From positions 124,001 through 188,000 of the forward strand of contig CADAZN010000001.1 of the NCBI GenBank assembly GCA_902792435.1: a DNA stretch of 64,000 bases, given 5' to 3'. The notes under the pieces are model-generated. The model ran no database searches and was not told the DNA's origin. It worked only from the letters and a program-made list of their open reading frames with translations. The number at the start of each line of letters is the position of its first letter. The first letter of the stretch is position 1. Shown here piece by piece: positions 17,379 to 23,519 of the stretch. Source of the DNA: an uncultured Bacteroidales bacterium. GTDB taxonomy: Bacteria > Bacteroidota > Bacteroidia > Bacteroidales > Muribaculaceae. The translations under genes were made by a program, and so were the position numbers.

Positions 17379-18851
17379 ATGAACCCTCAAGAGAGTTTAA
17401 CTCAATTATACAAGCAATACGTTGGCAGTGAGCCTACAGAAATCAAACTAATGGACAAGGCCGGCTCTAACCGTAGTTATTATCGCCTTTCTGGCGACAA
17501 ATCGGTTGTGGGAGTTATAGGTGAATCTCGTGAAGAAAACGATGCATTCATCTATATGGCCAATCATTTCAAGCAGCAAGGCCTTTCGGTCCCAACCGTT
17601 TATGGAATAAGTGAAGACCACATGGTCTACATTCAGGAAGACCTGGGTGGCAAACCCGAGAACATCTTATGGAACAAGATTCGTCGCAGTAGCATCACTC
17701 ATGCCTTCACAAGCGAGGAAAAAGCTCTCTTGCGTCGCGCTATGAGAGATTTGTGCGACATTCAGTTCCGTGGCACTCATGGTTTTGATTACAGCAAGTG
17801 CCATCCCGCTGAGTGTTTCGATGAGCGTTCTATCAAGTGGGACCTTAACTACTTCAAGTATTGCTTCCTTAAAGCAACAGGAATCGTATTCAACGAAAAC
17901 AGGCTTGAGAATGACTTCGAACGCCTAACACATGACTTGCTCGCGGTTCCAAGTGAAACGTTCATGTATAGAGATTTTCAGTCACGCAATGTAATGCTCG
18001 TTGGCGACACTGAACACCCTGCCGATTGTCGCCTGGCGTATATCGACTTCCAAGGTGGCCGTCGTGGTCCTTACTACTACGACGTTGCCTCATTTGTGTG
18101 GCAGTCACGAGCCAAGTATCCCGAAGACCTGAAAAAAGAGCTCATCCAGGCCTATATCGACCAACTCAAGATTTACAAACCCGACCTTGACGAGAAACTG
18201 TTTTTCGACAATTTGCGATTGTTCGTGCTGTTCCGCACGCTACAAGTATTGGGTGCCTATGGATTCCGTGGCTACTTTGAGAAGAAGCCAGACTTCATGA
18301 AAAACAGTATAGTACCTGCTATTGCTAACTTACGACGTCTTGTTACTAGCACATCATTTGAACAATATCCTTACTTAAGCGAAATCATCAATGAACTGGT
18401 GAACATGAAAGACTTCACCAGTGAAGAGAAATCGCTCACAGTAAGAGTCATGAGCTTTGCCTACAAGAAAGGCATACCACATGATCCTTCTGGCAATGGC
18501 GGAGGTTTTGTGTTTGACTGCCGAGCATTAAACAATCCAGGAAAATATGATAAGTACAAAGCTTTTACTGGATTAGATGAGAACGTAATCAAGTTTCTAC
18601 AAAAAGAAAGTACTATCGATAAGTGGCTAGAGCATGTATACGCTATGGTAGATGAATCAGTAGAACGCTATATGAAACGTAATTTCACCGACTTGATGGT
18701 ATGTTTCGGATGCACTGGCGGCCAACACCGCTCAGTATATGCAGCACAACATTTAGCAGAGCACATTTACAAAAAGTTCAACGTACGCGTCGAGCTCTCT
18801 CACCGTGAGCAGAGTGGACACGACCGCACTTTCAATCCCGTGGTTGAATGA
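17379..18851 (+). CDS. AmgK-like sugar kinase fused to RapZ C-terminal domain
   Basis: The first 330-345 residues form an aminoglycoside-phosphotransferase-fold kinase: a Gly/Ser substrate-side loop (AGSNRSYYRL), the catalytic Brenner motif as YRDFQSRNVML (about residue 197) and the metal-binding AYIDFQGGRRGPYYYDVASF (about 220), closely resembling AmgK, which phosphorylates MurNAc/GlcNAc at C1. Residues about 350-490 form a separate RapZ C-terminal domain: SFAYKKGIPHDP, FVFDCRALNNPG and FGCTGGQHRSVYAAQHLAEH, the region that in E. coli RapZ binds glucosamine-6-phosphate and RNA. RapZ's own N-terminal P-loop domain is absent. The stop overlaps the MurU-like gene by 4 bases (ATGA). Domain calls are firm; the joint function is inferred. 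Confidence 0.85.
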   Translation: MNPQESLTQLYKQYVGSEPTEIKLMDKAGSNRSYYRLSGDKSVVGVIGESREENDAFIYMANHFKQQGLSVPTVYGISEDHMVYIQEDLGGKPENILWNKIRRSSITHAFTSEEKALLRRAMRDLCDIQFRGTHGFDYSKCHPAECFDERSIKWDLNYFKYCFLKATGIVFNENRLENDFERLTHDLLAVPSETFMYRDFQSRNVMLVGDTEHPADCRLAYIDFQGGRRGPYYYDVASFVWQSRAKYPEDLKKELIQAYIDQLKIYKPDLDEKLFFDNLRLFVLFRTLQVLGAYGFRGYFEKKPDFMKNSIVPAIANLRRLVTSTSFEQYPYLSEIINELVNMKDFTSEEKSLTVRVMSFAYKKGIPHDPSGNGGGFVFDCRALNNPGKYDKYKAFTGLDENVIKFLQKESTIDKWLEHVYAMVDESVERYMKRNFTDLMVCFGCTGGQHRSVYAAQHLAEHIYKKFNVRVELSHREQSGHDRTFNPVVE

Positions 18852-19609
18852 AAGCGATGATTTTTGCAGCCGGACTAGGAACAAGGCTACGTCCATTAAC
18901 CAATGATCGCCCAAAGGCTTTAGTAGAAATTGGTGGCAAAACCATGTTGGAGCGAGTTATAAACAAACTTGCTGCTGCTGGTTTTGATGATATCACTATC
19001 AACATTCATCATTTTGGGCAGAAAATCATTGATTTCATCAGTGAGAACAACAACTTTGGACTAAACATCCACATCAGCGACGAACGGGATTTGCTCCTTG
19101 ACACAGGTGGAGGCATACTTAAAGCAAGGTCTTTTCTTGATGGAAACGAACCGTTTCTTGTTCACAATGCCGACATTCTTACAAACATTGACTTGAATGC
19201 AATGTACTCTAGCCACATCAAAAGTGGTGCCATGTCAACAGTATTGGTAAAGGAACGTAAAACTAACCGCTATTTCATTTTTGATAATGACTACCAGCTA
19301 CAAGGATGGATTAATAAATTGACTGGAGAAACAAGACCATCAGAATTCACTCATCACGAGGAAATGCAAGAACTTGCTTTTGGCGGAATACATGTCATAT
19401 CGCCAAGTATCTTTGATGAATTAGAGAAGTATTCGCAAGGTCAATCTAAATTCTCAATAACACCTTTCTATGTGGACATGTGCAGAAGGCTTTTGATTAA
19501 AGGTTATGTACAGGATTCACCCTACACCTGGCTTGATGTTGGAAAACCCGAAACACTAAAAGAAGCCGAACAGATGATTGCTTCCGACAAAACAAAAAAT
19601 CGCTCTTGA
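18848..19609 (+). CDS. MurU-like sugar-1-phosphate nucleotidyltransferase
   Basis: A 253-residue nucleotidyltransferase with the N-terminal signature FAAGLGTRLRPLTNDRPKAL, the metal-binding aspartate in FLVHNADILTN (about residue 107) and a LDTGGGI substrate loop. The best functional guess, from sequence and from overlap with an AmgK-like kinase gene, is MurNAc-1-phosphate uridylyltransferase (MurU), returning cell-wall sugar to UDP-MurNAc without passing through GlcN-6-P. The alternative is another hexose-1-phosphate nucleotidyltransferase. A hairpin terminator follows. Confidence 0.8.
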   Translation: MKAMIFAAGLGTRLRPLTNDRPKALVEIGGKTMLERVINKLAAAGFDDITINIHHFGQKIIDFISENNNFGLNIHISDERDLLLDTGGGILKARSFLDGNEPFLVHNADILTNIDLNAMYSSHIKSGAMSTVLVKERKTNRYFIFDNDYQLQGWINKLTGETRPSEFTHHEEMQELAFGGIHVISPSIFDELEKYSQGQSKFSITPFYVDMCRRLLIKGYVQDSPYTWLDVGKPETLKEAEQMIASDKTKNRS

Positions 19610-19643: not shown

Positions 19644-19685
19644 AACTCTAAGACAATGACTGTGTCTTGGAGTTTTCTTTTTATA
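19644..19685. terminator. Terminator after the MurU-like gene, shared with the convergent gene
   Basis: AACTCTAAGACA (19644-19655) pairs, with one internal mismatch, with TGTCTTGGAGTT (19663-19674), then TTTTCTTTTTA. A second short stem (AAATCG/CGATTT) lies just before at about 19598-19622. Confidence 0.75.
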
Positions 19686-22109: not shown

Positions 22110-22406
22110 ATGGATTTAAGTTACGAAACTAAACTTGCTGTCTGGAAGAAGGCTAAGGTCGTAAATGGCGCCAACCCTGCTATATGGCGAAAAGACCAAT
22201 GCGATGCTTGGATTGGTTGGGACTATTATGGTGACAGATCCTGTGATTATGGATGGGAGATTGATCACATCACTCCAGTTTCCAAAGGTGGCACTAACGA
22301 CCTTTCCAATCTTCGTCCTCTTCAATGGATGAACAATGCTTACAGACAAAATGACCGTTTGTATTGTAAAATTACTTCCCTTGGTAATCATAATGTAGAG
22401 AAGTAA
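22110..22406 (+). CDS. Small HNH endonuclease-domain protein
   Basis: A 98-residue protein that is almost only an HNH domain. The metal-binding core is seen in WEIDHITPVSKGGTNDLSNL (about residues 52-71) followed by RPLQWMNNAYRQ. HNH nucleases cleave or nick DNA with one metal ion; stand-alone forms occur in mobile DNA and as repair or restriction accessories. The size is normal for the single-domain type. It is followed by a short frame and a terminator. Biological target unknown. Confidence 0.75.
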   Translation: MDLSYETKLAVWKKAKVVNGANPAIWRKDQCDAWIGWDYYGDRSCDYGWEIDHITPVSKGGTNDLSNLRPLQWMNNAYRQNDRLYCKITSLGNHNVEK

Positions 22407-22780: not shown

Positions 22781-23032
22781 TTAGTTAAACAGTTTTCTGC
22801 CGAGTTTCGTTTCAATCAAGGCGATAGTTCGAAGTGTGAAGTTGTGTCTACCTGTAAGCCACCTTGAAACCTCAGACTCTCGTTTGCCAAGCATTTTTGC
22901 AAATTGCTTTTGTGTGATACCCTTTTCTTTGAGGGCGGCATCAAGCCTAGCTGCCAGCAAATAGGAAATTTCAAACTCTCTTTTTACATCTGCTGGTATT
23001 GCTTCAAAGGCTTCCCAAAGCAGTGTGTTCAT
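22781..23032 (-). CDS. XRE-family HTH antitoxin
   Basis: An 83-residue DNA-binding protein with one helix-turn-helix (KGITQKQFAKMLGKRESEVS, about residues 37-56) and a GRHNFTLRTIALIE continuation typical of HigA-type antitoxins. It follows the preceding gene by 10 bases. From this pairing it is inferred to neutralise that protein and repress the operon, in the toxin-first order of higBA. Confidence 0.8.
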   Translation of the reverse strand: MNTLLWEAFEAIPADVKREFEISYLLAARLDAALKEKGITQKQFAKMLGKRESEVSRWLTGRHNFTLRTIALIETKLGRKLFN

Positions 23033-23042
23033 AATGATTTGG

Positions 23043-23519
23043 TTAAAGTGTAAGTTTTATATCGTCAATATTTGTTATTATGGTTTTTTCAATTGTCACA
23101 GAACCGTTCTTTTGCATTTCTTTTAACAGGGCGTCAAATGCCTGCAGGTCACAGACATATCCATTCAAGATGGGGTCTTGTTCATAAGTGGCAGTAGTTT
23201 TTATTCCACCATTACCTAATATGAGAATCTGATCACTGATACGCAAGCAATAAAGACGCAATTTGCGTGAGTCAATCGATAAAGCAGCAGCATTATCTGA
23301 GAATTTTCCTTCTGGTCTGAAGAATCTCTCAAGAGCTCCATCCGAGACAATTTTTGTCAAAGCGAAAATAATCCTTTGAAAATCACGACTTACAGAAGCA
23401 TTCTGCTTGAAAGTAGTAACAAACTTGTCAAATTCACTCTGGGTACCGTTTATACAAATTGAGTATAAACCTACGTTGTCTGACTGCTCTATTGTTTTAA
23501 GTGTTATTTCTTTTGCCAT
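23043..23519 (-). CDS. Candidate RelE/HigB-type (Gp49-like) toxin
   Basis: A 158-residue protein just upstream of an XRE antitoxin. The central part (ERFFRPEGKFSDNAAALSI, then SRKLRLYCLRISDQILIL and GNGGIKTT) resembles the beta-strand core of RelE/HigB/Gp49 toxins, where the target arginine strand is followed by a hydrophobic strand and a K-rich turn. RelE-fold toxins cleave mRNA on the ribosome. It is longer than classical HigB (about 100 residues), with an extra N-terminal 60 residues. Assignment rests mainly on gene order; moderate certainty. Confidence 0.55.
   Translation of the reverse strand: MAKEITLKTIEQSDNVGLYSICINGTQSEFDKFVTTFKQNASVSRDFQRIIFALTKIVSDGALERFFRPEGKFSDNAAALSIDSRKLRLYCLRISDQILILGNGGIKTTATYEQDPILNGYVCDLQAFDALLKEMQKNGSVTIEKTIITNIDDIKLTL

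Follow-up and report, generated by a model that had tools for sequence, protein, structure and literature searches.

What does the C-terminal domain (CTD) of RapZ, which has an RNA-adapter role in Escherichia coli, do on a sugar kinase? The question is raised by a locus in a 64-kb stretch of DNA (64,000 nucleotides, hereafter the window) from an uncultured Bacteroidales bacterium of the family Muribaculaceae, in which one open reading frame joins a kinase related to AmgK to this domain, and is followed on the same strand, with a 4-base overlap, by a gene for a MurU-like nucleotidyltransferase. The answer that we favor, tentatively and with a little less than even confidence, is a two-gene unit for the salvage of N-acetylmuramic acid (MurNAc) to UDP-MurNAc, with the CTD as a phosphatase. 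As proposed, the kinase half would phosphorylate MurNAc, and perhaps N-acetylglucosamine (GlcNAc) too, at C1, and the MurU-like enzyme would convert MurNAc-1-phosphate to UDP-MurNAc, bypassing MurA and MurB. The Cys-x5-Arg-Ser loop of the CTD would bind an amino-sugar 6-phosphate, which the domain would then hydrolyze, with MurNAc-6-phosphate as the first candidate and GlcNAc-6-phosphate or glucosamine-6-phosphate (GlcN6P) as alternatives. In this way, sugar that AnmK or MurK had parked at C6 could re-enter the anabolic route, a job done in Pseudomonas by MupP, an enzyme of the haloacid dehalogenase (HAD) type. The two parts of this reading differ in strength: salvage of MurNAc through an AmgK-type kinase and MurU is well supported, with a kinase substrate that we infer, and the phosphatase assignment, including its ligand and its catalysis, is plausible at somewhat under an even chance. 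The features of the locus, in window coordinates, are as follows.

17379..18851, plus strand: kinase-CTD fusion gene, 490 amino acids, ATG start (open reading frame, Pfam, NCBIfam).
17379..18380, plus strand: AmgK-like sugar kinase domain with the aminoglycoside phosphotransferase (APH) fold, residues 1-334 (PF01636, AmgK models, PDB relative 3csv).
17970..17990, plus strand: kinase catalytic loop RDFQSRN, residues 198-204 (alignment, 3csv).
18045..18053, plus strand: DFQ motif, residues 223-225 (alignment; IDFQ is common to 3csv).
18414..18848, plus strand: RapZ CTD, residues 346-490 (PF22740; fold match to E. coli RapZ structures).
18492..18506, plus strand: glycine-rich insert GNGGG, residues 372-376 (alignments with canonical RapZ proteins, which are without it).
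18711..18734, plus strand: Cys-x5-Arg-Ser phosphate-binding loop CTGGQHRS, residues 445-452 (CTD alignment).
18848..19609, plus strand: MurU-like sugar-1-phosphate nucleotidyltransferase gene, 253 amino acids (Pfam, NCBIfam, PDB relatives 4y7t and 8hhd).
19644..19674, plus strand: terminator-like hairpin of 12 pairs with a T-rich tail, 3' of the MurU-like gene.

The fusion, its coordinates, its motifs (YRDFQSRNVML at residues 197-207, IDFQGG at 222-227 and FGCTGGQHRSV at 443-453) and the 4-base overlap, all given in a preliminary description of this DNA, were borne out by the open reading frame list and by Pfam. A frameshift in a single assembly does not explain the fusion, since CTD-bearing frames of about 470-530 amino acids occur often in the samples from the family, the order and the phylum, and since kinase and CTD share one frame in 27 phylum genomes, including that of the window.

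In the kinase half, PF01636 (APH) matched residues 29-260 at 38.1 bits, over a cut-off of 23.2, and the only kinase models of NCBIfam to match at an expectation value (E) of 0.001 were two for AmgK, at 33.9 and 33.6 bits. The APH fold and the catalytic motifs RDF...N and DFQ are present as in AmgK; the RDFQSRN loop and the DFQ motif, which we take to be the metal-binding motif of the kinase fold, were identical in all 30 aligned kinases, that of the window included. Structure prediction of the full-length protein by AlphaFold, as suggested in the preliminary description, was run on 30 sequences and returned a mean predicted local distance difference test (pLDDT) of 87.4 and a predicted template modeling score (pTM) of 0.77; Foldseek placed 3csv first for the whole protein and RapZ first for the CTD. 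The same 3csv, in which RDFHAQN aligns with RDFQSRN, was also the best PDB relative of the kinase by sequence, and was followed in the Foldseek list by corramycin kinase, choline kinases and the pneumococcal LicA. The partner protein matched PF00483 at 94.1 bits, and its best NCBIfam match was MurU (149.8 bits; the best non-MurU family scored 96.1). Its PDB relatives were led by 4y7t (98.8 bits), presumably a MurU structure, and by 8hhd (82.5 bits), which is named as MurU in the PDB listing, with the next at 72.3. Thus, the AmgK/MurU context that had been suggested for this pair holds at the level of best specific matches, all of them below the equivalog cut-offs, and by sequence each protein is a relative of its namesake and not a certified member. 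Across the phylum the MurU model of NCBIfam was uninformative, as all 296 genomes matched it at E 0.001 and none passed its cut-off.

These scores also bear on the possibility that the kinase acts on another substrate, be it aminoglycoside-like, choline (the case of LicA/LicC) or a different N-acetylhexosamine, and that the pair makes a different activated molecule. The diversity of APH-fold kinases, the presence of corramycin kinase, choline kinases and LicA in the Foldseek list, the unmet equivalog cut-offs and a weak match of the partner to the phosphocholine cytidylyltransferase 1jyk (47.4 bits) are consistent with such a role. However, AmgK was the sole kinase family matched, MurU led by more than 50 bits, and the reciprocal pattern with MurQ described below suits MurNAc, so that we regard a different substrate as improbable.

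The identity of the CTD was clear from both sequence and fold. PF22740 (RapZ CTD) matched residues 353-478 at 119 bits against a cut-off of 27, the NCBIfam RapZ model scored 113.4 bits over residues 315-477, under its equivalog cut-off of 244, and RapZ was the nearest solved structure by sequence. The AlphaFold model of the CTD (23 sequences; mean pLDDT 80.1, pTM 0.80) gave 17 Foldseek matches with E < 0.001, all of them E. coli RapZ, followed by weak matches to phosphofructokinase and unrelated proteins. Nonetheless, the fusion protein is judged from its sequence not to be a RapZ, because the P-loop N-terminal domain of RapZ (PF03668) had no match in the window's genome, and because the basic RNA-binding tail is missing from the window protein, with K270, K281, R282 and K283 of E. 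coli RapZ replaced by V, G, H and D. These and all further residue counts use E. coli RapZ numbering and refer to the 35 CTDs of the phylum sample other than the window's own.

An RNA-binding role for the kinase had been raised in the preliminary description, by which the fused enzyme would bind RNA as E. coli RapZ does. K170 and R184, two of the basic residues along the RNA path in E. coli RapZ (PMC9841335), are often kept: position 170 is K or R in 33 of the 35 CTDs, R184 is present in all 35, and among the 26 other fused CTDs K or R occurs at 281 in nine and at 282 in 15. Against this stand the loss of all four tail residues in the window protein, the lack of K or R at position 270 in any of the 35, the genome without a RapZ N-terminal domain, the restriction of the RNA-binding domain to Enterobacteriaceae stated in PMC7073468, and an Rfam search that found, in the window as distinct from the rest of the genome, just one match, a transfer RNA. 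RNA binding as the main function was rejected on the missing tail and N-terminal domain, and such a regulator is very improbable overall.

The phosphate loop of the CTD is strictly conserved. Its residues C, T, G, G, H, R and S were identical in 35/35, with Q replaced by R once, which means that the C-x5-R-(S/T) loop of Cys-dependent phosphatases is present in every one; the Cys, Gly-Gly, His, Arg and Ser recur in E. coli RapZ, in canonical RapZ of seven other genera and in two CTDs of Streptomyces plasmids. Khan and Goerke (2020; PMC7199280) have already pointed out that the E. coli pocket resembles the tyrosine-phosphatase loop, and proposed that GlcN6P is hydrolyzed. In a crystal with GlcN6P, the pocket density was described as resembling a changed product (PMC9841335), phosphatase activity is reported for YvcJ (PMC7525490), and the reference list of the latter paper includes one on HpaP titled with 'ATPase and phosphatase activity'. 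A tyrosine-phosphatase fold was considered for the CTD and rejected, being absent from the best 50 of 203 Foldseek matches. The residue check foreseen in the preliminary description had a mixed outcome: the proposed GlcN6P pocket is mostly kept (C247, T248, G249, H252, R253), and two elements are gone, namely the RNA tail in the window protein and H190, the latter being Gly in all 35 CTDs. Position 190 is H or Y in E. coli RapZ and the seven other canonical proteins, F in the two Streptomyces-plasmid proteins, and in the window sequence lies near the GNGGG insert, absent from E. coli and the seven other canonical RapZ; given the H190 replacement and the nearby glycine-rich insert, the ligand may differ from GlcN6P. 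The stand-alone CTD genes on small Streptomyces plasmids (L206 3995-4393, 132 amino acids; L207 3304-3789, 161 amino acids) lie a few genes away from a MobF relaxase.

The same pocket could also be that of a sensor, in which the CTD binds GlcN6P or another amino-sugar 6-phosphate without turnover and switches the kinase on or off, thereby matching salvage to the amino-sugar pool, a view already offered in the preliminary description. In E. coli RapZ the CTD is the part that binds GlcN6P (PMC7073468, PMC7199280), and the pocket is mostly conserved. On the other hand, an invariant Cys is not obviously needed for pure binding, and C247S abolishes RapZ activity (Islam et al.; PMC9841335); the change of H190 to Gly in 35/35 also counts against the sensor. 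We hold the sensor to be a real possibility, though well short of even, and rank the phosphatase slightly above it, with further evidence on both coming from the distribution of the domain.

PF22740 was found in 36 of 296 genomes of the phylum sample, in 175/218 sampled from the order Bacteroidales and in 174/198 of the window's family (173 over the cut-off). In the order sample, all but seven CTDs among the matches listed lie in frames of at least 370 amino acids, as judged by frame length only. In the phylum sample, 27 of the 36 CTDs are fused, the window's included, and nine are separate genes; a MurU-like gene stands beside 21 of the 27 fusions within 1.5-kb flanks. The survey of Bacteroidales called for in the preliminary description could thus be answered in part, for the CTD at the level of the order and for the fusion beside murU phylum-wide. 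Searching with the kinase domain matched 100 of the 296 genomes, of which 37 with E < 1e-30 include all 36 CTD genomes; the CTD never occurs without this kinase in the same genome (36/36). The only other genome at this level, G009, has the kinase and a MurU-like gene but no CTD, and the remaining 63 all bear one family label, f18. At f18 loci L216-L218 a distant AmgK-like kinase gene stands immediately before one for a MurU-like protein of 312-320 amino acids, with no CTD. Apart from the kinase, CTD and MurU, no neighbor cluster was common to more than nine of 38 loci; these were drawn from G009, which has the kinase but no CTD, and from every CTD genome except that of the window (35 of 36).

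The separate genes are arranged in several ways. In the f5 genomes and in G031 the kinase and CTD genes are adjacent, with the CTD gene between kinase and MurU, and at L176 a MurU-like gene adjoins the CTD. Linkage of kinase and CTD is lost in G180, where they lie on different contigs, and in G271, where about 547 kb of one contig separate them; no MurU was found beside either gene. In six genomes of genus g159 in the window's family (L210-L215), the CTD gene directly precedes the MurU-like gene, each of the six has a kinase-only frame on a different contig, and the stretches around the CTD gene hold no kinase; in L212 and L215 a gene that looks ftsZ-like by eye is directly upstream of the stand-alone CTD gene. 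In a kinase tree of 54 rows, midpoint-rooted and with 18 of 51 inner branches open, the separate genes fall among the fusions in three places: G031 groups with the fused G124 (97/98), the six f5 genomes lie inside a clade with nine fusions (97/98), and genus g159 joins two fused members of the window's family (100/99). The simplest reading of these sequences is an old fusion that was later split at least three times. As the domain survives splits and moves with its loop intact, it is probably more than an internal switch of the kinase. For the sensor, the predominance of the fused form (27/36) is in its favor, but a CTD that persists with intact loop as a separate protein, even beside MurU and away from the kinase, would require control in trans there. 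The same arrangements bear on a third role, in which the CTD merely dimerises the enzyme or docks MurU, its loop being a relic or binding a passing phosphate. In accord with such a structural or channeling domain, the CTD gene sits between kinase and MurU where the genes are adjacent, and the E. coli CTD self-associates through YVFD 179-182 (PMC5737377), of which F181 and D182 are, like R184, invariant in 35/35. A scaffold would, however, hardly hold C-T-G-G-x-H-R-S invariant, and in G180 and G271 the two genes are unlinked and have no MurU beside them; this role is unlikely.

The distribution of the locus was also compared with that of MurQ. Presence of MurQ was scored at E < 1e-50, a line of our own drawn against weaker matches to sugar isomerase (SIS) proteins, and 232 phylum genomes were compared, the 64 f18 genomes being left out as one family label; according to the match lists, the latter have MurQ in 0/64, neither AnmK nor CTD in any, and the distant kinase in 63. 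Outside f18, MurQ is missing from 20 of 232 genomes, and the kinase is present in 20/20 of these and the CTD in 19/20, against a CTD in 17 of the 212 with MurQ (Fisher p 5e-17, uncorrected for relatedness). Together with AmgK and MurU as the best specific matches, this supports MurNAc salvage, which had been proposed from the window alone. The pattern resembles the either-or of proteobacteria, which have MurQ or AmgK-MurU (PMC5371407). Twelve of the 207 AnmK-positive genomes, members of six families, are without MurQ; each of them has both the CTD and the kinase, compared with a CTD in 13 of the 195 that have MurQ (Fisher p 6e-13, again without correction for relatedness); one of the AnmK-positive genomes, G216, was so counted on a weak match (E 1.2e-10). 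In these 12 genomes MurNAc-6-phosphate would arise from AnmK without a MurQ exit, a configuration which in the Pseudomonas AmgK-MurU route needs MupP between AnmK and AmgK (PMC5371407). The same paper states that MurNAc-6-phosphate builds up in E. coli when murQ is missing. Overall, the invariant loop, the CTD in 12/12 AnmK-positive genomes without MurQ, the kinase in all 36 CTD genomes and the persistence of the CTD after splitting support a phosphatase.

The window's own genome presents a different situation. It has MurA and MurQ-like genes, and a cluster on contig C13 (L209) encodes a major facilitator-type transporter, the exo-muramidase NamZ, a flavin adenine dinucleotide/iron-sulfur oxidase, a membrane protein, a MurK-like kinase and a MurQ-like etherase. 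The cluster kinase had as best PDB matches 8oqw, listed as 'ATPase' (E 4e-93), and 8ow9, listed as 'Putative novel MurNAc kinase', and we take it for MurK. The membrane protein has no name in Pfam, and its position recalls the MurNAc importer MurT of Tannerella forsythia. Free MurNAc would accordingly have two fates in this cell, namely phosphorylation at C6 with breakdown, or phosphorylation at C1 with reuse. Such a branch point would suit a C1 kinase with an amino-sugar-6-phosphate domain, whether that domain is a sensor or a phosphatase; for the sensor, the branch between MurK/MurQ-like and kinase/MurU would be a natural site of control.

Several observations weigh against a salvage unit with a CTD phosphatase. 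Both proteins fall below their NCBIfam lines, the kinase half under AmgK cut-offs of 500/550 bits and the MurU-like protein under 250. No tyrosine-phosphatase, low-molecular-weight or Cdc25/rhodanese fold was among the best 50 of 203 CTD Foldseek matches, and no general acid was identified in the CTD. In print, GlcN6P binding by RapZ is described as sensing, and the accessible text of PMC7525490 does not assign the activity of YvcJ to its CTD. AnmK was not found in the window's genome, which is 93% complete, and the MurK-like and MurQ-like genes there would make a futile cycle possible if the CTD were a MurNAc-6-phosphate phosphatase. More broadly, 17 of the 36 CTD genomes, including the window's, have MurQ, 11 of 36 are without AnmK, and in the window's family AnmK occurs in 3/59 although the CTD occurs in 174/198. 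AnmK as a universal source of the CTD substrate was rejected on the last two counts. The genome comparisons are also not phylogenetically independent, six of the 12 AnmK-positive genomes without MurQ being one family. Lastly, a MupP-like HAD phosphatase may be a possible alternative; no search aimed at MupP was made.

The locus can be compared with several known systems. Like the Pseudomonas AmgK-MurU route, which includes AnmK and MupP (PMC5371407), it pairs an APH-fold kinase with a MurU-like gene downstream and, outside f18, is associated with MurQ absence; unlike it, the Bacteroidota kinase bears a RapZ CTD, scores lie well below the AmgK and MurU cut-offs, and nearly half of the CTD genomes retain MurQ. 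MupP would share the proposed reaction and pathway position, but is an HAD-type enzyme, whereas the CTD is a Cys-loop domain of a different fold. With E. coli RapZ (5o5o, 5o5s, 8b0i) the CTD shares its fold, dimer strand and Cys-x5-Arg-Ser pocket; the window protein differs in lacking the P-loop domain and basic tail, in Gly for H190, in five extra residues (the GNGGG region), and in sitting on a sugar kinase. Bacillus subtilis YvcJ and Xanthomonas HpaP have a related CTD, and the loop was seen in the Bacillota and Xanthomonas RapZ homologues compared, a set other than these two; they have an N-terminal nucleotide-binding domain, and no amino-sugar phosphate is named as their substrate in the accessible part of PMC7525490. 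The NamZ, membrane protein, MurK-like and MurQ-like cluster resembles the MurNAc scavenging system of T. forsythia (MurT, MurK, MurQ and AmpG, with AmgK and MurU also named; PMC7670621), in the accessible text of which a RapZ domain is not mentioned; nor does RapZ occur in that of PMC10465942. The kinase-CTD fusion or its place in MurNAc salvage was not found in the RapZ and AmgK literature covered (supplements and subscription papers lay outside the search). What is new here is the place of the Cys-loop CTD in the AmgK-MurU route, the likeness to a phosphatase loop itself being already published.

A wider proposal may be considered, which we put forward as conceivable and no firmer than the sensor: that the RapZ CTD is at root a Cys-based amino-sugar-6-phosphate phosphatase, that the Bacteroidota form is a MurNAc-6-phosphate phosphatase fused to a C1 kinase, moving phosphate from C6 to C1 in one polypeptide and replacing MupP, and that E. 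coli RapZ turned this pocket to its RNA-adapter role later on. If the kinase is an AmgK, salvaged MurNAc in these bacteria probably reaches peptidoglycan through this pair, which may be the sole supplier of UDP-MurNAc in relatives where no MurA was detected. Such relatives make up 6 of 21 genomes of the window's family (G300, G304, G309, G312, G313 and G314); all six have the CTD, their completeness is 85-99%, and they are possible MurNAc auxotrophs. Since the CTD is tied here to a metabolic pathway and not to a small RNA, the locus offers a clean setting in which to ask whether a RapZ domain hydrolyzes its ligand. The domain is in most sampled genomes of the order, yet the one annotated homologue examined, from Parabacteroides distasonis, bears the name of an RNA adapter. 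This fusion (L205 5017-6447, WP_005858754.1, 476 amino acids) is recorded as 'RNase adapter RapZ', and shares 4 bases with the gene that follows, WP_005858756.1, which is recorded as a nucleotidyltransferase.

As for the rest of the window, six terminator-like sites were observed in the 64 kb, compared with a mean of 2.1 in shuffled sequences. A frame of 98 amino acids at 22110-22406 looks HNH endonuclease-like by eye, and at 22781-23519, on the minus strand, a small protein that is helix-turn-helix-like by eye adjoins a frame of 158 amino acids.

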